IMG/VR virus record: IMGVR_UViG_3300030943_000020
Span: 1-60,360 of that record
Strand: one strand, 5' to 3'
Length of the DNA stretch: 60,360 nucleotides
DNA from: a virus
Position numbers and translations under genes: made by a program. Of the stretch, positions 11,355 to 50,586 are shown piece after piece. The notes beneath the pieces are model-generated. The model saw nothing but the letters and a program-made list of their open reading frames with translations, searched no databases and was not told where the DNA came from. Every line of letters begins with the position of its first letter. The stretch's first letter is position 1.

Positions 11355-11513
11355 ATGTCGATCTTTACAGGCATGTGCAACAACCACGGAACCCCCGCCT
11401 GTGGATGGACCCTCGTCTGCTGCCAGAAGGCAGGACACCCCGGCACTCATCAGGCTTACTGGGCAGATCGACTCTGGGAGTGGGCCAACCCACCCCTGCT
11501 CGTTAGGCCCTGA
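11355..11513 (+). CDS. Small Cys/His-rich protein (52 aa), plus strand
   Basis: ATG 11355-11357 to TGA 11511-11513. One of only two plus-strand genes. The peptide starts MSIFTGMCNNHG and holds four Cys and several His in a zinc-finger-like spacing (CNNHG ... ACGW ... VCCQKAGHPGTH), followed by a Trp-rich end (YWADRLWEWANP). The order of residues does not look like shadow coding, since the opposite strand carries no gene here. It is divergent from MazG and convergent with the lysin, ending in the hairpin at 11507-11544. Confidence 0.55.
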   Translation: MSIFTGMCNNHGTPACGWTLVCCQKAGHPGTHQAYWADRLWEWANPPLLVRP

Positions 11514-11556: not shown

Positions 11557-12825
11557 CTACTTGACTGGCAGGGTCAGGTTGGCCAGCATCCCGTCGTGAT
11601 CACTGGCCTTGGTCTCGTGCTCACTGCCCCCTGTGCGGTCGCTCAGGCCCCTCACGAACACGAAGTCGAGGTGCTGTACCCCCGGCTTGTCGTAGGTGTC
11701 CACGTAGGGCGTGACGAGCTTGTAGCCCGCCTTCTCCATCTGGGCCCGTGCAGTCGCGGTGGACCAATCCCCACCCACTGCCACACGGGGGTACTTGGCC
11801 AGCTTGGCGATGACCTTGTCGATGTCGTTCTTCTTGCCAAGAGCCTTGTGCGCGTCGGTGCCACCGATGGCGTCGTTGGGCCGGATGTGGACGGAGGCGG
11901 CGACGAAGGTGTTGCCGTTCTTCTTGCTGGTCAGCTCGGTGCCGATCATGCCGTGGTACGGAGTTCCGAAGTCGACCTCGATCCGGTCACCGTGCTCGTA
12001 CTTGCCCGGGTACCAGAAGATGGCCACGGTGTTGAGGGGGAAGACCAGCATGTCGGTGGTTGCCCTGATCTCGTCCCGCTGGTCCTCATCGACCTCCTGA
12101 CCTGCCAGCACGGACACACCAAGGACATCGTCCACGAACATGGCGTCAGCAGCGTCAGAGCCACCGCCGAAGCGCTGGAGCTGGGCGTTGTAGGTCCCGA
12201 ACCTGAAGTCCACCGGCTGGGGGCCCGTGGGCGTGACCACCGGAGGCACCACGACCACCGGAGGGATGACCACCGGGACCTTGGCAGCGAGCAGGGCGGA
12301 CCACGTGAGGGGACCATCGATGCCGTCGTCGTCGAGCCCGACCGACTTCTGGAACTGCCTTAGGGTCATGCCCAGAGCCTTGAGCCGGGCAGTGAGGTCG
12401 GCGGCGCGGTGCTTGTCGAGGGAGGCCTTGTACTCGAAGTGCCAGCGCTCACTGGGCACCGAGCGGTAGAAGCCGTACTCGTTGATCCGGAGCTTCTCCC
12501 CCGCCTTGGGCTTGCTCGATCCGACGCCACCCTTGCAGGCCCACGCGTGCGCCGCACTGGGGGCGTACTTGCCCGCCGTGGTGGTGTGCATGTCGAAGGC
12601 CCGCTGATCGATGTGGGGAGCTGTCCAGCTCGGCTTGGCCGCGAGCGGACCACCGTGGTGCAGGTAGTTGTCCCTCAGCTGGGCCTGCTCGTTCCAGCTC
12701 CTCTGGAAGACGTCGACCCCGCCCTTGGGCATCCCGCCCTTGATCGCTCGCAGGTAAGCGGCTGCCACGTCGCCCCGCAGGGTGTGTCCGGAGGTGTCGA
12801 CGGAAGCATAACGAGAGACGGTCAT
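11557..12825 (-). CDS. Endolysin: VanY peptidase + PG-binding + EEP nuclease domain
   Basis: 422 residues, ATG at 12823-12825. Residues about 30-140 form an M15/VanY-type peptidase with zinc ligands H71 and D78 (HIDQRAFDM) and H129 (ERWHFEY). Residues about 141-182 (MTLRQFQKSVGLDDDGIDG) are a peptidoglycan-binding repeat. A Pro/Val linker (183-203) leads to an endonuclease/exonuclease/phosphatase (DNase I-like) domain with its motifs: N213 (TYNAQ), E244 (GQEVDE), H313 (SVHIRP), D353 (GGDWS), D387 (LDFVFVRG) and H410 (SDHDG). The fusion suggests one protein that cuts wall peptides and a phosphodiester or phosphate ester substrate, for example released host DNA. The individual domain calls are strong; the combined role is inferred. 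Confidence 0.85.
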   Translation of the reverse strand: MTVSRYASVDTSGHTLRGDVAAAYLRAIKGGMPKGGVDVFQRSWNEQAQLRDNYLHHGGPLAAKPSWTAPHIDQRAFDMHTTTAGKYAPSAAHAWACKGGVGSSKPKAGEKLRINEYGFYRSVPSERWHFEYKASLDKHRAADLTARLKALGMTLRQFQKSVGLDDDGIDGPLTWSALLAAKVPVVIPPVVVVPPVVTPTGPQPVDFRFGTYNAQLQRFGGGSDAADAMFVDDVLGVSVLAGQEVDEDQRDEIRATTDMLVFPLNTVAIFWYPGKYEHGDRIEVDFGTPYHGMIGTELTSKKNGNTFVAASVHIRPNDAIGGTDAHKALGKKNDIDKVIAKLAKYPRVAVGGDWSTATARAQMEKAGYKLVTPYVDTYDKPGVQHLDFVFVRGLSDRTGGSEHETKASDHDGMLANLTLPVK

Positions 12826-12860: not shown

Positions 12861-14024
12861 ATGACAGACACCTACGCTGCCGACCTGAGCACCAAGGTCA
12901 CCACACTTAGCACCGAGATCGATGGCCACATGGCTGCGGTCACCCAGCTCACGAGCCAGATCCAAACCTACGAGGCAGCGATCCCTCCGCTCATGGCCGA
13001 GATCGATACCCACAAGGCAGCGGTCCCTGCCCTCACTGACCAGATCACGATCCTCAACCTCCGGCTGGCCCGGACCAAGCTACGGGTGAACGTGGACAAG
13101 CCCGGGTCCGACAACACCGGGTGCATCAAGGGCATCCCGATGACCAACTGGAACGATCCGGGCACCACCGGCAAGGTGGCTGTGCCTCCGGGCGAGTACT
13201 GGGACATGCACTTCTACGGCGACTGCTACCCGGGGGATCCGACGGGTGAGTACGTTTTCAGAAACCCTCACTTCCATGGAGGCAAGGGCCACCCCAGCAA
13301 CAACCTCGGCTGCCTCTACACGTGGAACCTCACCACCGGCTGGGTGACCGTTGAGGACGGCACGGTCAAGGCCGACGACCCGAGCTACTACCGGGACGGC
13401 ATCGTGGGCCACCGGCTCACCGTCCGGCGTTGCAACATCTACGGCACCAACGACGGCATCGGGATCAACAAGGTCAACACGACCCAGCCCAACATCCTTG
13501 AACAGAACTGGATCCACGATCAGATCGGCTTCAGGCAGGACCCTGCACACTCGGACTGGACGCACAACGACCCGATGCAGCTTCAGTGTGGGAACAATCA
13601 GGTCCGGGGCAACACCCTTCAGGCCTACGTCACTGCCGATCCTCGCAGCACAGGACCGGTGCTCTACCCGGTGGCGGGTCGTCCGGGTGTGGGCTACGGC
13701 GGCAGCGCCATCATGATCAGCGAGGGCGGTGGCACGTTCGACCCGAACTCCCTGATCGACGGCAACTGGCTGGAGGGTGGCTACGCGCAGGTCAACGTCA
13801 ACAACAACCGGGGCGCTGGCCACACCCTGAAGTTCAAGATGGGCATCAACCGCTACGGCAGGGACGTCCGGGAGAACTACGCTCCCCGCACCGACAAGCG
13901 CTGGATCGCCCTTGCACCGAACGGTGGCAACATCGTGATCGAGGGCCTGCTCACCAAGCAGACATGGAACGACGGTGGCGGTCTCCTCACTGAGGGTCGC
14001 GCCACCGGCATCCGCTGGCTCTGA
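12861..14024 (+). CDS. Beta-helix spike-like protein on the plus strand
   Basis: 387 residues. The first 75 residues form a heptad-rich coiled coil (STEIDGHMAAVTQLTSQIQ). The rest reads as a right-handed parallel beta-helix with repeated short turns (GHRLTVRRCNIYGTNDGIG; NILEQNWIHDQIG), like pectate-lyase-type tailspikes and depolymerases. A coiled-coil stalk followed by a beta-helix fits a trimeric adhesin or glycan-degrading spike. It is divergent from the lysin and its stop abuts the stop of the 14025-14387 gene (TGATCA). Its orientation, opposite to all structural genes, suggests separate acquisition. A perfect palindrome lies inside it (13254-13265). Confidence 0.75.
   Translation: MTDTYAADLSTKVTTLSTEIDGHMAAVTQLTSQIQTYEAAIPPLMAEIDTHKAAVPALTDQITILNLRLARTKLRVNVDKPGSDNTGCIKGIPMTNWNDPGTTGKVAVPPGEYWDMHFYGDCYPGDPTGEYVFRNPHFHGGKGHPSNNLGCLYTWNLTTGWVTVEDGTVKADDPSYYRDGIVGHRLTVRRCNIYGTNDGIGINKVNTTQPNILEQNWIHDQIGFRQDPAHSDWTHNDPMQLQCGNNQVRGNTLQAYVTADPRSTGPVLYPVAGRPGVGYGGSAIMISEGGGTFDPNSLIDGNWLEGGYAQVNVNNNRGAGHTLKFKMGINRYGRDVRENYAPRTDKRWIALAPNGGNIVIEGLLTKQTWNDGGGLLTEGRATGIRWL
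13254..13265. repeat. Intragenic GTTTYNNGAAAC palindrome
   Basis: GTTTTCAGAAAC, a perfect copy inside the plus-strand spike gene. Confidence 0.7.
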
Positions 14025-14387
14025 TCAGTCTTCGTGTACGGGGAGCACCCTGACCATGCCGTTGGGCAGGGGCTTCTCAGCCATGACCACCTTGACCGGC
14101 TCCTCCTCCATGAAGACCGCTGCGACCTCCCTCAGGAGGGCACCAATGCCCTTCAGGCTCTCAGGGAGAGTGCCCCCTGCTGCCAGTCCACCCGTGGTGA
14201 CATCGACCACTGTGGCCCCGTCTGGGTCCGTGCCGAAGCGCATCAGGATGGTGGGTGGCAGGCCGTCCCCAAGGGTGATCTCGGTCTTGGCGATCTTGCC
14301 GGAACCGGTGGGGTAGACCGCTCCCCGGACGCGCCACGCGACGGGTCCCTCCATGGGGATGTTGGCCTCGGCGTGCTTCTTGCCCAT
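14025..14387 (-). CDS. Hypothetical protein (120 aa)
   Basis: ATG at 14385-14387. Beta-rich start (MGKKHAEANIPMEGPVAWRV) and an acidic helical middle (GIGALLREVAAVFMEEE). Its TGA directly abuts the stop of the convergent spike gene. Function unknown. Confidence 0.65.
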   Translation of the reverse strand: MGKKHAEANIPMEGPVAWRVRGAVYPTGSGKIAKTEITLGDGLPPTILMRFGTDPDGATVVDVTTGGLAAGGTLPESLKGIGALLREVAAVFMEEEPVKVVMAEKPLPNGMVRVLPVHED

Positions 14388-14881: not shown

Positions 14882-15417
14882 CAGAACAGACCCTCGAAGC
14901 TGTCGAGTCCGGACAAGTCAATCTTGTTTCCTGAAACGATCTCCGGAGCAGGCTGTGGCTCCTCGCGGGGCTCCAGCCGCTGCACCCACGGCAGCCGGAT
15001 CGAGCTGTACCCACGAGCCTTGGTGGCCTCGAAGTAGCCCTGCTCCAGAATCCCGGCGTGCACCATGGCAGCCATCAGGTTGAGGTACTGGCCCCAGTCC
15101 ATGGGGTGGTCGATGATCAGGTGGTGGTGCCCGGGGGTGGTGGAGTCCAGCAGGATGCACGGGATGTCGAGGTCGAGCACCGGGGCGTGCTGGCAGGCAC
15201 TACCCACGAACTCCTGCTCCTCGTCGTAGAGGAACTCCGGCTGCTGGGCCTCGACCACGGAGGTGATGACGTTGGCCTCGGAGACGTCGGCCACCACCGG
15301 CTCGTCGTAGCAGTTGTAGGCGTGTCCCTCGTCGGAGAGCTTCTTCTTGGCGACGAAGTCGACCTTGCGCAGTACACGGCGCACCGCACCGGGGACGTCG
15401 GAGAGGGTGCGGATCAC
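14881..15417 (-). CDS. Hypothetical protein (178 aa), paralogue-like to 30799-31155
   Basis: GTG at 15415-15417 overlaps the previous stop (GTGA). It contains HAPVLDLDIP, closely matching HAPIIDLDFP in the 30799-31155 protein, and then PGHHHLIIDHP. A conserved DLD followed by a histidine cluster is faintly like archaeo-eukaryotic primase motifs, but too little matches to claim this. A perfect palindrome lies near its 3' end (14926-14937). Confidence 0.65.
   Translation of the reverse strand: MIRTLSDVPGAVRRVLRKVDFVAKKKLSDEGHAYNCYDEPVVADVSEANVITSVVEAQQPEFLYDEEQEFVGSACQHAPVLDLDIPCILLDSTTPGHHHLIIDHPMDWGQYLNLMAAMVHAGILEQGYFEATKARGYSSIRLPWVQRLEPREEPQPAPEIVSGNKIDLSGLDSFEGLF
14926..14937. repeat. 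Intragenic GTTTYNNGAAAC palindrome
   Basis: GTTTCCTGAAAC, a perfect copy inside the 14881-15417 gene, identical to the operator at 2371. Confidence 0.7.
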
Positions 15418-15998
15418 TGGAGCACGTCCACGACGACACCCTTGACGCAGTAGACCCACGTGGGGGCGTTGTAGGGGCTCAGGGCGAGGAGGCCCTTCGT
15501 GACACAGGCAGCCTCAGCGTCCGCCTTGGTGGGGGTCCCCGCCGAGCTGTTGGTGTTGGTCACCGACATCACCTCACCCTTGACACAGACCCACTGGTTG
15601 TTCTCGCCGACGAAGGTGCGGTTCCCCGACGTGGCGCACTCGGAGACGAACTCGTTGCGATGGGAGGTTGCCTCATCGACGGTGGCCAGCAGGGACTGGA
15701 TGAAGACGGCAGCCCCGTAGGCGGCGAAGAGCAGGACGAGCCAGATGCCGATCCTGTTGACCATCTTCAGCCAGAACTTGCGCCGGGCTTCCCGGTCCTG
15801 CACCAGTGCATGGCTCTGCTCGGCGGCGGCGGTGTGCTCGGCGGCGGCGGTGTGCTCGGTCGCCATGGAGTCGTGCTCGGCAGCGGCAGCGTGCTGCTCC
15901 ACGACAGAGGCGTCGACCACGGTGGCGACCGCCTCCTTCACGGTCGTCTCCACGGCCTTCGTTGGGGTCTCAGTCCCCGGGTGGTCTTCGTTGCTCAT
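15414..15998 (-). CDS. Membrane protein with Ala/Glu-rich coiled coil (194 aa)
   Basis: ATG at 15996-15998, chosen because it lies exactly 6 bases past the -10 TACCAA, as in two other leaderless genes; an in-frame ATG at 16004 is the alternative. The N-terminal 80 residues are helical with AAAEHT-type repeats. One membrane span follows (IGIWLVLLFAAYGAAVFI), then an external part with four Cys (SECATSG ... WVCVKG ... AACVTKG ... VYCVKG), probably two disulfides. It is next to the holin-like genes and may take part in lysis control. Confidence 0.65.
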   Translation of the reverse strand: MSNEDHPGTETPTKAVETTVKEAVATVVDASVVEQHAAAAEHDSMATEHTAAAEHTAAAEQSHALVQDREARRKFWLKMVNRIGIWLVLLFAAYGAAVFIQSLLATVDEATSHRNEFVSECATSGNRTFVGENNQWVCVKGEVMSVTNTNSSAGTPTKADAEAACVTKGLLALSPYNAPTWVYCVKGVVVDVLQ

Positions 15999-16003
15999 AC
16001 TCA

Positions 16004-16032
16004 TTGGTACGCCTCTCATGATCGATAACGCA
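16004..16032 (-). promoter_or_regulatory. Second-class promoter (GGCG-TACCAA)
   Basis: Minus strand -35 TGCGTT (16027-16032), 17-base spacer ending GGCG, -10 TACCAA (16004-16009). The -35 directly follows the terminator stem at 16035-16071. The start codon at 15998 gives a leaderless mRNA. Confidence 0.6.
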
Positions 16033-16092: not shown

Positions 16093-16632
16093 TCAGGTCT
16101 GGGGTTCCTCTTCGTCCGTCGATGCCACCCTCTCGGGGGCGTAGTCCTCGACGACCTCGACCATGGGAGCCGCGCTGTTGTTGGTGATGACGAAGGTGCC
16201 AGCAGGGGCGACCACGACTGCCGGAGGTGAGGTCACGTTCACGCCGGGGATGACGATCAGCGAGGCCTGCATGGCAGTGGCCGCAGCAGAGGCGAACGCA
16301 CCTGCGAGGAGAGTCCACCACGGCACGTTCTCAACGAGCAGGATGGTGCCGATGCCCGCGATCATGAACTGGGTGAACTGCCTAATGAACCTGCTGCCAA
16401 GGATCTCCCAGAAGGTCGCGTTGGGTCCCGGTTCAGGGAGTCCCTTGAAGGAGGTCAGCACGGTGATGATCAGGACCAGAGCGACCTGTGACACCACCGC
16501 CAGCGGGAGGATGGGAATGCCTGCGGAGTAGGCCATCAGGAAGGGGAACACTGAGGCCACGAAGGTGCGGAACAGTGCGAAGCCGATTCCTTTCCAGAAA
16601 TCAGGCGTGAGTAGTACGGACAGGGATGTCAT
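16093..16632 (-). CDS. Likely holin (multi-span membrane protein)
   Basis: 179 residues, ATG at 16630-16632. Three to four hydrophobic segments are visible (FALFRTFVASVFPFLMAYSAG; LPLAVVSQVALVLIITVL; FMIAGIGTILLV; WWTLLAGAFASAAATAMQASL), followed by a soluble acidic tail (EVVEDYAPERVASTDEEEP). The size and pattern fit r1t-type actinophage holins. It lies between the lysin region and the DUF2746-like gene. The leader holds the 16-bp box shared with the major tail gene. Confidence 0.7.
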   Translation of the reverse strand: MTSLSVLLTPDFWKGIGFALFRTFVASVFPFLMAYSAGIPILPLAVVSQVALVLIITVLTSFKGLPEPGPNATFWEILGSRFIRQFTQFMIAGIGTILLVENVPWWTLLAGAFASAAATAMQASLIVIPGVNVTSPPAVVVAPAGTFVITNNSAAPMVEVVEDYAPERVASTDEEEPQT

Positions 16633-16686: not shown

Positions 16687-17232
16687 CTACCGGGCGTCCT
16701 CGAAGAGGGAGGGCTGGAGATGCCCCACACGAGAGTTGGCGATCATCTCTGCGGTGTTCTCATTGGCTCTCTCCAACAGGTCGGCCAAGATCACGGGGAC
16801 GTTCTCCAAGTGGTCGTTCAGGGCTCCCTGCGTCTCCTTCATCCCCAAGGCCAGAGAGGAGACATCTGCTTGTGTCTCCTTCACCCCCGTGGTCAGCTCC
16901 GCAACCTCCCGGCGCAGTCCTTGGAGTTCCTCGGCGAGCTTCAGCTCGGAGCCGTGGTTGGGTGTGACCTGTGACTCGATGGCTTCCAGCTTCTGGCTGT
17001 TCTTGACGATCTCATCGCCATGGTCCTTCAAGGTGGCCATGACTCCGGGCCGTTCCGGGATGCCCGACTTGGGGCGGGCAGGCTCGCCGTTCCAGTCCTC
17101 GAAGAAGTTCTTCAGGCCCAGCGCTAAAGGGGAGACGAACCTCCAGCCAGCCACGATGGCTCCAATCCCGACCAGAACAATGAAGATCTGGCCAACGGTA
17201 ATGTCCGCCAACCACTGTGGGATGTTGGACAA
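16687..17232 (-). CDS. Membrane protein with coiled coil, DUF2746-like
   Basis: 181 residues. TTG start at 17230-17232, preferred because GGGAGGGG lies six bases upstream; an ATG 39 bases earlier lacks such a site. One N-terminal span (ITVGQIFIVLVGIGAIVAGW) is followed by a long coiled coil (LKLAEELQGLRREVAELTTG). This matches DUF2746-type proteins found next to lysis genes in actinophages. A second holin or lysis regulator is likely. Confidence 0.65.
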   Translation of the reverse strand: MSNIPQWLADITVGQIFIVLVGIGAIVAGWRFVSPLALGLKNFFEDWNGEPARPKSGIPERPGVMATLKDHGDEIVKNSQKLEAIESQVTPNHGSELKLAEELQGLRREVAELTTGVKETQADVSSLALGMKETQGALNDHLENVPVILADLLERANENTAEMIANSRVGHLQPSLFEDAR

Positions 17233-17295
17233 GTTGGACCCCTCCCGGATGTGCCTTTCCCTGCCTATCAAGATCGGACGAGATTCCGAAAACCC

Positions 17296-34816: not shown

Positions 34817-37570
34817 TCAGCCACCGATCAACTGTAGAAGGGCGAGGGGGGAGAGTGCGTTGAACAGCTCAGAACTCTCATCCCAGATGTGTGCTGCCAG
34901 AGCAGCCTCGCGCTCCAGCAATGGCATGTACTTCTCCTCCTGAGTATTCACCGTCAGGAGGTTGTGCACATAGACATGCTGGAACGCAGAACCATCACGC
35001 CGGATGCGGCCAGCAAGCTGCTCCATCCGGCTTGGGTTGAGAATCGTGTCGATGTTGACGAGGTGGCGGGAGACCTGAAGGTTCAGGGACTGCTCGATGG
35101 CCTTGGTGCCGATCAGCACCTTGCACCTCGGGTCGGTCCAGAAACGCTCCTGTGATGCCGCGCGCTTGGTCTTGTCCGCCTCCTGCCCCCAGACGGTCAC
35201 GAAGCCCATACCCTCCTCACGCAGCCGCAGCTGGAGGGCCCTGACGGTGTTCTTCAGGTTGGCGAAGATGACGACCTTCTCCCCGTCCTCACTGAGCCCT
35301 CCCTCGGTGAGCTGATTGACCACCCAGTCGAGCTTGACGCTGGTCCCGGGGCCGTCCTCTTCCCCGAGTGCTGCGAGCCCTGCACAGATGGCCGCACCGT
35401 AGTGGAGCTTGGCCAGCGCGTTGGGGCGCTTCACCTGCGTGCCCTCCTCGCGGATGATCTTCAGCACGCCCTTGCGCAGCTCGGTGTACTTGGCCCGCTG
35501 TGCCGGGTAGAGGTCGAGCATGACGTCGTTGGGAATGATCGTGGGCAGGTCGACGTCGTCGAGGTCGGCGGCGGTGCGGCGGAGCACGAGCGGGGCGATC
35601 CGGGCCTTGACCGTGCCGAGATCCCGATAGCCGACCACGACCTCCTTGCGTACGTCCTTGCCTGACTTCCGGTCGTACTCGGTGATGGTGGCCTTGCGCA
35701 CGTGGCGGTGGATGAAGGAGTCCATGCTGCCGAGCACCCGGCTACCCCCGAGGCCGTCCAGCACGGCGTGCAGCTCGGGCAGGCGCTTCTGGAGGGGGGT
35801 GCCGGTCATGATGACGTAGCGGTCGGTGCCGGGACGCAGGCCCTCGATGCCCCGGGCCCCCATCCGGTCCAGCACGTAGGAGGTCTCGGTGGTGGGGTTG
35901 CGGAGGGCGTCGATGTCGTCGGTGAGGAAGAGGGACAGGTCGAAGTTCTCCAGCAGCTGGTAGTCGTTGCGGAGCATCTCCGGCCCGATCAGGAGCACCT
36001 GCCACGGCTGGAGGTAGAACTGGGTGCGCTGCTTGCGAGTGCCCTCGGAGACGAGGACGTTCAGGCTGGGCATCATCCGGAGCAGCTCGGTGCGCCACTG
36101 GTGGAGGGCCGGGGAGCGGGGGACGATGATGACCCTGCCCTTGCCGCCGTGGGCGTCGGAGCGGTCACGGAAGAGGGACAGCTCACCTGTCTCCACCAGC
36201 ATGGCGATCAGTCCGCCAGCCTCGGTGGTCTTACCACTGTTGTGGGTCACGATGAAATCGTCGGTGATGTAGAGGTGACTCTCGGAAGCGACCCTGATGC
36301 AACGGACCTCCTGCTCTCCCTGAGGCGTGATGGAGACGATGCCCCGGGTGGGCTCGTACTTGGTTGCCGGGGTGTGGCGTGCTGCCTTCCGGGCCAACCG
36401 GAAGGGGTTGATCGTGGACGGCAGAGCAATGTGGAAGCGATGGAACAGCTGACCCGTCCGGACCTCACCCTTGTAGGTGAACGTCGGGATCTTCTCAGTC
36501 CGGCTGAAGGTTCCACCCAGCGAGTTGACCAAGAAGGCCATGTCGTCGGCCAGCCCGGGAGAGACGGTTCCCCACTCGACGGTCGACTCCCCATAAGCCG
36601 CGCCATCGGTGTCCAGCAGTCCCTGCATGAGGGCGATGCGGTTGGCTGCTGAGGTGAGTAGATACTCCCAAGGCACCCGCTTGGATTCGGCGGAGGACAA
36701 GGTCAGCCGATTGCTGAGAAGAGGCTTCAGACCACGAAGCCGGAAGTCCGCGCTGTACTCAACTCCCTTGGCGCTGACCAGTATCGGCGTGACTCCATCA
36801 GGAAGCGTGAGGTTCTCGACGATCTCCTTGTCGGTGCTAAGCATGATCGAGCCACCGTCGTAGCCATCCCCGAGCAGGACGCCAACTGTGTATGGATCCA
36901 GCTCCAGTGGTTCCCCTCCCGTCAACTCGACCGGCACAGTCAGAGGGATGTACCAGCGGTGGTTGCCGTTGGAGTAGTCGAGCCCAGCGTCGAGAAGTTC
37001 CTGCGTGGTCTTGACCAGCGGAGAACGCCCGTGATGCTTGCGATCAGGAGTGGTGACCTGCCACAGGTGGGTGTCGGCAGCCTCCGTCACGGACCCGTCG
37101 GTGAAGGTGATCTCATACACGGGTCGGACGCCCTGAGGAATGATCTCCTCGACAGTGGTCCAGCCTCCGGTGGTGGGGTCGACAACCTTGTCACCTGCGC
37201 TCAGGTCACGCAGGCGTTCGTAACCGGTAGGAGTGAGCACGCTGGCATTCAGCGGCTGAGGGCCCATGGTGTCCGCCAGCAGTGCATGTTTCTTGAAATA
37301 GAGCCACGCCACACCGATGTGCTGGTGCCTGCGGAAGTGGATCCCACAGTCCCGGCAGCCGGGCTTGGGCCGGTCGTAGACGGTGTGGGTCTTGACCTCG
37401 CCGTCGGTGTCGCGGATCTCCTCGACCCACCCACGTGCGTGGATGCGGCACAGGTCGTAGTTCCACACCTTCAGGGGTGGGAGCTTCCAGTTCGCGGACT
37501 GGTGGATCCTCCACGCGAGCTGCTCACGGCGAGCATCGGTGAAGTTGCGGACGTCAAAGTTCAGTGGCAA
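34817..37570 (-). CDS. SNF2-like DNA helicase interrupted by a class 3 intein
   Basis: 917 residues before splicing (576 after). TTG start at 37568-37570 with TTAGGAGG upstream. A zinc-like N-terminus (CRDCGIHFRRH) precedes Walker A, which is split: ADTMG (99-103), the intein, then SGKTTEAGG (445-453). Motif II is FLTDDIDAL; motif VI is MEQLAGRIRRDGSAF. The helicase probably remodels replication or recombination intermediates. A near-perfect palindrome (37288-37299) lies inside the 5' part. It follows promoter 37590-37618. Confidence 0.9.
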   Translation of the reverse strand: MPLNFDVRNFTDARREQLAWRIHQSANWKLPPLKVWNYDLCRIHARGWVEEIRDTDGEVKTHTVYDRPKPGCRDCGIHFRRHQHIGVAWLYFKKHALLADTMGPQPLNASVLTPTGYERLRDLSAGDKVVDPTTGGWTTVEEIIPQGVRPVYEITFTDGSVTEAADTHLWQVTTPDRKHHGRSPLVKTTQELLDAGLDYSNGNHRWYIPLTVPVELTGGEPLELDPYTVGVLLGDGYDGGSIMLSTDKEIVENLTLPDGVTPILVSAKGVEYSADFRLRGLKPLLSNRLTLSSAESKRVPWEYLLTSAANRIALMQGLLDTDGAAYGESTVEWGTVSPGLADDMAFLVNSLGGTFSRTEKIPTFTYKGEVRTGQLFHRFHIALPSTINPFRLARKAARHTPATKYEPTRGIVSITPQGEQEVRCIRVASESHLYITDDFIVTHNSGKTTEAGGLIAMLVETGELSLFRDRSDAHGGKGRVIIVPRSPALHQWRTELLRMMPSLNVLVSEGTRKQRTQFYLQPWQVLLIGPEMLRNDYQLLENFDLSLFLTDDIDALRNPTTETSYVLDRMGARGIEGLRPGTDRYVIMTGTPLQKRLPELHAVLDGLGGSRVLGSMDSFIHRHVRKATITEYDRKSGKDVRKEVVVGYRDLGTVKARIAPLVLRRTAADLDDVDLPTIIPNDVMLDLYPAQRAKYTELRKGVLKIIREEGTQVKRPNALAKLHYGAAICAGLAALGEEDGPGTSVKLDWVVNQLTEGGLSEDGEKVVIFANLKNTVRALQLRLREEGMGFVTVWGQEADKTKRAASQERFWTDPRCKVLIGTKAIEQSLNLQVSRHLVNIDTILNPSRMEQLAGRIRRDGSAFQHVYVHNLLTVNTQEEKYMPLLEREAALAAHIWDESSELFNALSPLALLQLIGG
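36239..37261 (-). mobile_element. Class 3 intein with LAGLIDADG endonuclease
   Basis: 341 residues (104-444 of the precursor) inserted exactly in Walker A. It starts with Pro, not Cys or Ser (PQPLNASVLTPTGYERL), and ends IVTHN before Ser. The class 3 triad can be read: Trp67 in ADTHLW (block B), Cys321 in VRCIRVASESHLY (block F) and Thr339 in VTHN (block G). Two LAGLIDADG motifs (VGVLLGDGYDGG and LMQGLLDTDGAA) show a homing endonuclease that looks intact. Confidence 0.9.
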
Positions 37571-49136: not shown

Positions 49137-49439
49137 CTAGTAGATGGCCTCCGACTCGACCAGCTCACCGAGAAGGTTGAACCTGTGGAGGACCCTCAGC
49201 ACTGGCTTGCCCTGCTGCCGCATGGTCTTCTTGCAGTCGTCACAGGACAGCTCCACGAGGTTCCCCTCCACGATCTTGGGGTGTTCCCCGGCGACCATGG
49301 TCTTGGCCAGCAGGCGGCGGGCTCCTGTCGGGCACCGCAGCTCCACGATCCGGGAGACCGCTCTGGTGATCCTCGTGTCGAGCTGAGGGTTCTCCTTCTT
49401 TCGGGGAAGCTGGTCGGGAGGGACTCTCCTATCAGGCAT
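49137..49439 (-). CDS. Hypothetical zinc-binding protein (100 aa)
   Basis: ATG at 49437-49439, preferred over a GTG six bases earlier because GAGGAG then stands five bases upstream. RCPTG and SCDDCKK supply Cys for a small zinc site in a basic protein. It lies between the glycosyltransferase and the major tail gene. Function unknown. Confidence 0.65.
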   Translation of the reverse strand: MPDRRVPPDQLPRKKENPQLDTRITRAVSRIVELRCPTGARRLLAKTMVAGEHPKIVEGNLVELSCDDCKKTMRQQGKPVLRVLHRFNLLGELVESEAIY

Positions 49440-50586
49440 GGTCACTCCTCGCGATCTGGGCCAAGGTCCACAGGCGCTCGCCCTGCTCCTTGGGCAGGTT
49501 GGTCTTGAGCTTCAGGAACAGCTTCTCGACCACGGCATCCCAGCTGTGCGCCTGCGGGATGATCTTGGCGGCGAGCTGGCCCTTCTCCTGTGCCTCGTTG
49601 CGGTGCTGGAAGACGTGGAGCATCAGCCGGGCGAGATCCTCGACGGACGCCCGAGCGTTGAACGTTTCTGGAAAATCAGGGCTGACCGGCTCCAGCGTGT
49701 AGGCCAACGGGTAGGAGTAGGCCGGGTCGAGCCACTGGGTGTGGCCGGACCAGTTGGTCGCGATGACCGGGCCCCCTGTGCTCATGAACTCCAGCGCCGG
49801 GACGTTCTTGCCTTCGCCACGGGACGGTGCGAGCAGGCAGTGCTGGACCTTGTAGAACTCGCGCACCAGCTCGGTGGGCCAGATGTCGTAGAAGATCCGC
49901 AGGGAGGAGAACTCGTCCCCTGTCTCCGGGTCGATGTCCCGGTACAGGTCCTCGATCTTGTGGTGCAGGCCGGGAGCGGTGGTCTTCAGGCTGAGACGGG
50001 CCCAGCGCCAGAACTCTGGGTCCATCGAGCGCGCGAGCCGGAACGCCTCAATGGTCCGCCACGGATCCTTCCGCTCGGAGAGGACTCCGATCTGGGCGAA
50101 GTAGAACTCCTTGGTGTCCCAGTCCCGGTCGAACATGTAGGGCCACATGGTGGGGTCGAAGCCGCCCTGCTGGACAAAGGCGGGGCCGTCGAAGTAGGGC
50201 TCGATGCAGGCCGGGTCGAGGTCGGAGTAGCCGACGAAGACGTCGAAGTTCTTCATCCGAGCCCGCAGGGTCTTACGGGTCCTCTTGGCGAGGTTGAGCA
50301 GGTTCGAGTACTCCCACATCGTCCACGCGACCTTGACCCCCACCTGAGGGGCAATCTCGTCAGGGCACTGGAGCTGGCCCGGGTCGATGTGGTTGATGTA
50401 GAGGTCGAACGGAGCCGCCAGCTCCTTGGTCAGGAGGTTGGCCACGTCCTGTGGCAGAGGGGCGTCCACCGAGGTGGCTTGCAGGTAGACGTCGGCTCCG
50501 TAGCGCATCAGCGCCTGAGCCAGACCGATCCCGTCCCCGCCGTAGCCGGAGTACGTGCTGATTGGTGATCGCAAAAGCACCTTCAT
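49432..50586 (-). CDS. Glycosyltransferase (GT-B, family 4 type)
   Basis: 384 residues, ATG at 50584-50586. It starts MKVLLRSPISTYSGYGGDGI (acceptor-domain glycine loop), has YFAQIGVLSERKDPWRTIEAF at the hinge, and ends with the donor-site motif PSRGEGKNVPALEFMSTGGP followed by VIATNWSGH. Such enzymes use nucleotide sugars. The place among head-tail and tail genes suggests it sugar-coats a virion protein, as known in some actinophages. The acceptor is not known. Confidence 0.8.
   Translation of the reverse strand: MKVLLRSPISTYSGYGGDGIGLAQALMRYGADVYLQATSVDAPLPQDVANLLTKELAAPFDLYINHIDPGQLQCPDEIAPQVGVKVAWTMWEYSNLLNLAKRTRKTLRARMKNFDVFVGYSDLDPACIEPYFDGPAFVQQGGFDPTMWPYMFDRDWDTKEFYFAQIGVLSERKDPWRTIEAFRLARSMDPEFWRWARLSLKTTAPGLHHKIEDLYRDIDPETGDEFSSLRIFYDIWPTELVREFYKVQHCLLAPSRGEGKNVPALEFMSTGGPVIATNWSGHTQWLDPAYSYPLAYTLEPVSPDFPETFNARASVEDLARLMLHVFQHRNEAQEKGQLAAKIIPQAHSWDAVVEKLFLKLKTNLPKEQGERLWTLAQIARSDHA

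Follow-up and report, generated by a model that had tools for sequence, protein, structure and literature searches.

The viral DNA analyzed here, referred to in its full length of 60,360 nucleotides as the window (IMG/VR record IMGVR_UViG_3300030943_000020), encodes an endolysin in which an M15/VanY-type peptidase head, one peptidoglycan-binding repeat and a Pro/Val linker are followed by an EEP domain. Endolysins normally consist of peptidoglycan hydrolases and wall-binding domains, and the present fusion is a new form of modular endolysin, not a new kind of system. Comparisons within the family indicate that the EEP domain is a module swapped between lysin heads. We tentatively favor, at somewhat less than an even chance, a modular endolysin with an EEP domain that cleaves phosphodiester bonds of the host envelope, a target that we infer.

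Domain organization of the endolysin

The gene and its parts are as follows.
11557..12825, minus strand: endolysin gene, 422 aa (open reading frame and translation, ATG start)
12406..12825, minus strand: M15/VanY-type peptidase head, aa 1-140 (H71-x6-D78, E126, H129)
12277..12405, minus strand: peptidoglycan-binding repeat, aa 141-183 (PF01471)
12214..12276, minus strand: Pro/Val-rich linker, aa 184-204 (sequence)
11560..12213, minus strand: EEP domain, aa 205-422 (AlphaFold model, Foldseek, homologues above the PF03372 cut-off, residue table)

The GC content at the three codon positions of the 11557-12825 reading frame is 0.64/0.45/0.87, and the existence of full-length homologues, 70% and 53% identical, excludes an ORF that arose by chance. 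The architecture is shared by the homologues L025, L027, L039 and L112, and a signal peptide is absent from the window lysin. In the head, the zinc-site pattern is complete, with H71-x6-D78 supplying H-x6-D and E126-R-W-H129 supplying E-x2-H. Pfam does not recognize the VanY domain in the window protein, either in the complete sequence or in its separate parts, up to E=10, and the homologous heads of L042, L108 and L112 pass PF02557 with 26.9, 27.1 and 29.0 bits (cut-off 25). The peptidoglycan-binding repeat at residues 155-178 reaches 17.5 bits with PF01471, under the cut-off of 23, while its counterpart in L025 exceeds it at 25.6 bits. The first-pass annotation, made from the sequence alone, had placed a VanY-like peptidase, a peptidoglycan-binding repeat and an EEP domain in one protein, and this is borne out by motifs, homologues and a structure model.

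A family of EEP lysins with exchanged heads

The whole window protein, used alone as the query against viral and genome contigs, found nothing, and the family was recovered by scanning with the EEP part alone and then with small alignments. Among viral contigs, the EEP part retrieved L025 (70% identity over the full length) and the small alignments L027 (53%); the genome scan yielded a relative in Micropruina glycogenica, and a search of 199 genomes of the GTDB family of Micropruina gave about 10 strong loci. A further scan added the viral proteins L107, L108, L110 and L112, and an amidase-type alignment searched against viral contigs found none. At least 15 proteins belong to the family, and their catalytic heads are of two kinds, giving the architectures M15/VanY with peptidoglycan-binding repeat and EEP (L039, L040, L041, L042) and Amidase_2, with or without the repeat, and EEP (L036, L043, L044, L046). 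Each of the four domains, VanY, amidase, peptidoglycan-binding and EEP, passes its Pfam cut-off in some member.

As a test of modularity, identities of heads and EEP domains were computed separately, and three mismatches are visible. L110 joins an amidase head (PF01510, 33.7 bits) to an EEP domain 95% identical to that of L108, whose head is of the VanY type with a peptidoglycan-binding repeat. The head of L112 is 68-69% identical to those of L107 and L108, but its EEP domain is 56-57% identical to the group formed by the window protein, L025 and L027 and only 28-29% to L107 and L108. Finally, L040 has an M15 head, but its EEP domain is 50-53% identical to the amidase group.

Several copies reside on bacterial chromosomes. 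In Micropruina glycogenica, a lone lysin-like gene (L028:7953-9341, protein L035) adjoins a transposase-like ORF, and L038, L099, L100 and L104 are EEP lysin genes with no obvious holin or tail genes near them, which may have remained from prophages or been domesticated as wall enzymes. At L105:9011-10440 two overlapping ORFs encode the amidase part and the EEP part separately, each in its own frame, which reflects either a damaged gene or a faulty assembly.

Fold and active site of the EEP domain

The window protein gave no Pfam match for an EEP domain either, whole or split, at E=10, and the PF03372 cut-off of 24.5 bits was not reached; Pfam, NCBIfam and phmmer against the PDB returned no usable EEP call. 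The cut-off is reached by the homologues L027 (28.8 bits), L036 (35.4), L040 (28.2), L043 (28.8) and L046 (28.4), and the missing match is a detection limit for one divergent sequence, not a failure of the fold.

Given the window EEP aligned with homologues (eight sequences in all), AlphaFold produced a model of the domain with a pLDDT of 90.7 and a pTM of 0.90; a run without alignment (pLDDT 31) was set aside. A Foldseek search of the PDB gave TDP2 as top match (E 5e-13, TM 0.74-0.77), followed by bacterial EEPs, nocturnin and a 5-phosphatase. There were 183 PDB matches at E<=0.001, the best 50 of which are all EEP proteins, and DNase I is absent among these best 50 of the 183. A profile search of PDB sequences retrieved the Bacteroides EEP 3g6s (E 8.6e-5). 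As evidenced by the model, the EEP fold is present in the window lysin and closest to TDP2; of the earlier designation as a DNase I/EEP-type domain, the EEP fold stands, but DNase I is not the nearest relative. The window EEP has the fold and the catalytic residues of the superfamily PF03372 (TDP2, nocturnin, DNase I, exonuclease III, sphingomyelinase), but differs from solved EEPs in its low identity of 14-17%, in its fusion to peptidoglycan hydrolases and in a serine that replaces the Asn of the GDxN motif.

The structural matches to nocturnin and a 5-phosphatase could be taken to suggest that the EEP domain attacks a membrane lipid or a small nucleotide as a phosphatase or phosphodiesterase, in the manner of nocturnin, sphingomyelinase or inositol-phosphatase, and helps to disrupt the membrane or to block a defence signal. 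We consider this improbable, as there are no sequence features pointing to a lipid or nucleotide, and the fusion to wall hydrolases suggests a target outside.

Every one of the 15 members whose EEP domain is intact has N213, E244, R250, H313, D353, D387, D409 and H410, without variation. The first-pass annotation had listed N213, E244, H313, D353, D387 and H410 as a full set of key residues; all six are found at these positions, but the Asn of GDxN is Ser355. A serine is likewise found in L025, L039 and L046, position 355 being N, S, V or A across the family, and half of the family lacks the Asn. In the Micropruina copy L035 (L028), the EEP catalytic residues are gone except R250 and D353, and the M15 and peptidoglycan-binding parts look intact.

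An EEP fold that has little or no catalytic activity left and serves mainly to bind the wall or another polymer, directing the lysin to its host, would fit the C-terminal position typical for binding domains, the swapping between heads, Ser355 in the window protein and the near loss of catalytic residues in L035 beside a seemingly intact head and repeat. L035 may, however, be merely a decaying gene adjoining a transposase ORF, and the invariance of seven catalytic residues in 15 of 15 others, in EEP domains only 25-35% identical, is hard to explain without catalysis; we regard a binding role as unlikely, with roughly one chance in eight; it may apply to members such as L035. Selection on the domain is purifying, the EEP dN/dS of 0.10-0.15 in close pairs resembling the value for the heads. 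A chance or decayed fusion without function, for which the missing Pfam EEP match of the window protein and nothing else would speak, is refuted by this selection and by the full-length homologues in independent contigs and genomes, and its probability is negligible.

The lysin locus and its phage

Among named phages the window phage is closest to Microbacterium phage Magritte, whose DNA polymerase shares about 50% identity with the window enzyme; given this relationship to a phage with a 133-kb genome, the window is taken as a fragment of a larger phage. The viral collection holds contigs with DNA polymerases 100% and 87% identical to that of the window, and a search for the window lysin in the records of the polymerase relatives gave peptidoglycan-binding repeats only. 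In the sister phage L005 (87% polymerase) both flanks of the lysin are kept, window positions 14025-14387 at 90% and 11355-11513 at 84%, and between them lies an unrelated 453-aa lysin with PF25309 ELLD (E 2e-19) and peptidoglycan-binding matches. The different lysin at the same place identifies the window locus as a lysin locus. Its further features are given below.
12861..14024, plus strand: divergent 387-aa neighbour, beta-helix-like by inspection, absent here in L005
14025..14387, minus strand: conserved flank (90% homologue in L005, with the unrelated lysin after it)
15414..16019, minus strand: 201-aa membrane protein, possible lysis-cassette member (strong hydrophobic stretch; 78% homologue in L005)
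16093..16632, minus strand: 179-aa membrane protein, possible lysis-cassette member (strong hydrophobic stretch; 91% homologue in L005)
16687..17271, minus strand: 194-aa membrane protein, holin candidate (strong hydrophobic stretch; PHROG 15431 holin, E 2.3e-5)

The three membrane-protein ORFs lie upstream of the lysin on the same strand, and one of the three has the holin PHROG match. Full-length homologues of the window lysin are also found in the lysis cassettes of unrelated phage contigs; the L027 homologue directly precedes an r1t holin (PF16945, E 6e-16). The 387-aa neighbour belongs to no Pfam family and has a 50% homologue (L103:13348-14448, itself without a match in named phages). 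This homologue lies 2.8 kb downstream of a lysin with the VanY-PGB-EEP architecture, an indirect link between the window phage and the same hosts.

Elsewhere in the window, a 917-aa SNF2 helicase (34817-37570, minus strand) shows, preceding its helicase core, a weak LAGLIDADG match (E 0.003) at residues 312-369, possibly an intein or inserted homing domain, and a glycosyltransferase (PHROG 2170, E 3e-28) is encoded among the tail genes at 49432-50586 on the minus strand.

Distribution and relation to known lysins

When 50,697 named phage records were searched with the family queries, the heads matched ordinary endolysins and no match to the EEP part held up. An alignment to the Geonosis lysin that extended past the amidase head was followed up and the protein proved to be without EEP; three further named endolysins checked carried none. 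Named Streptomyces phage endolysins that match the amidase heads, inspected for a hidden EEP, lack it. Searches of open-licence papers for an endolysin that carries an EEP or a DNase domain yielded nothing relevant. The earlier statement that the fusion is not known as a standard lysin agrees with both searches.

The M15/VanY endolysins of Microbacterium phages (Magritte gp116, Zooman, Big4) resemble the window lysin in combining an M15/VanY-type head with peptidoglycan-binding repeats, but the Magritte lysin lacks an EEP domain and has four such repeats and an amidase domain instead. Similarly, the Amidase_2 endolysins of Streptomyces, Gordonia and Mycobacterium phages (Dryad, Amethyst, Geonosis) match the heads of L110, L036 and L046, but none of these three carries the EEP domain. 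An EEP domain is present in the tail fibre (gp17) of Citrobacter phage CR8 (PF03372, 39.3 bits), a phage protein in contact with the envelope; this protein, however, is no lysin but a tail fibre in the virion of a Gram-negative phage, and it matches the window EEP clade only weakly.

With partial genome sampling, bacterial copies come only from the GTDB family of Micropruina. GTDB assigns the genus to Propionibacteriaceae; in the NCBI taxonomy it is in Nocardioidaceae. Evenly drawn samples of 395 genomes of the class and 397 of the phylum gave a strong score for Micropruina itself only, the class sample adding two generic matches near E 1e-11. In the order sample every strong match came from already-found genomes of the same family, besides generic EEP matches at E about 1e-7 to 1e-11. 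The limit to one family is provisional, since pattern-based scans miss divergent relatives.

Function of the EEP domain

In the sequence of events that we propose, the holin would open the membrane first, the M15 head would cut peptide bonds of peptidoglycan with the peptidoglycan-binding repeat keeping the lysin on the wall, and the C-terminal EEP domain, as a presumed metal-dependent phosphodiesterase, would add a second cut in an envelope polymer. Its likely substrate would be a phosphodiester in a polymer typical of the host family, teichoic-acid-like or a phosphoinositol-anchored lipoglycan, and the outcome would be a loosened wall and the release of virions. A little more tentatively still, the domain may be a host-lineage-specific module, handed on among lysins whose peptidoglycan-cutting heads differ, that cleaves a phosphodiester-linked polymer in the envelope of actinobacteria of the Micropruina family.

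An envelope polymer is favored because the EEP domain travels with two unrelated wall-hydrolase heads, because it is so far confined to one bacterial family, as a general DNase need not be, and because an EEP domain also occurs on the CR8 tail fibre; furthermore, a free cytoplasmic DNase before lysis would presumably endanger the phage DNA. Counting against it are the replacement of the usual Asn by Ser355 and the fact that TDP2, the nearest solved fold, is a DNA-end phosphodiesterase, although at 14-17% identity this likeness assigns no substrate; also, the family restriction could reflect phage exchange networks.

The likeness to TDP2, the EEP fold as such and a nuclease-type catalytic set kept in most members are the grounds for a DNase released at lysis, which would digest host or extracellular DNA so that virions disperse, lowering lysate viscosity or thinning the eDNA matrix of flocs or biofilms. 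Set against this are the occurrence in phages of a single bacterial family, the lack of the GDxN Asn in half of the members, and the missing signal peptide, which would leave the enzyme in the cytoplasm with the phage DNA unless it is inactive there. With values spread over 5.5 to 9.6, the pI of the EEP domains does not tell a DNase from a wall enzyme. We hold a DNase to be a serious rival, if the less likely one, at about three chances in ten.

If the envelope reading is true, an EEP module travelling with lysins means that some phages hit a second, non-peptidoglycan target at lysis, and EEP lysins would direct attention to an envelope polymer of actinobacteria that have been little studied. 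The EEP domain would then also be a new enzyme part for lysins. With near-identical EEP domains on two different heads in L108 and L110, and with the chimaera L112, the question is directly testable with natural proteins.
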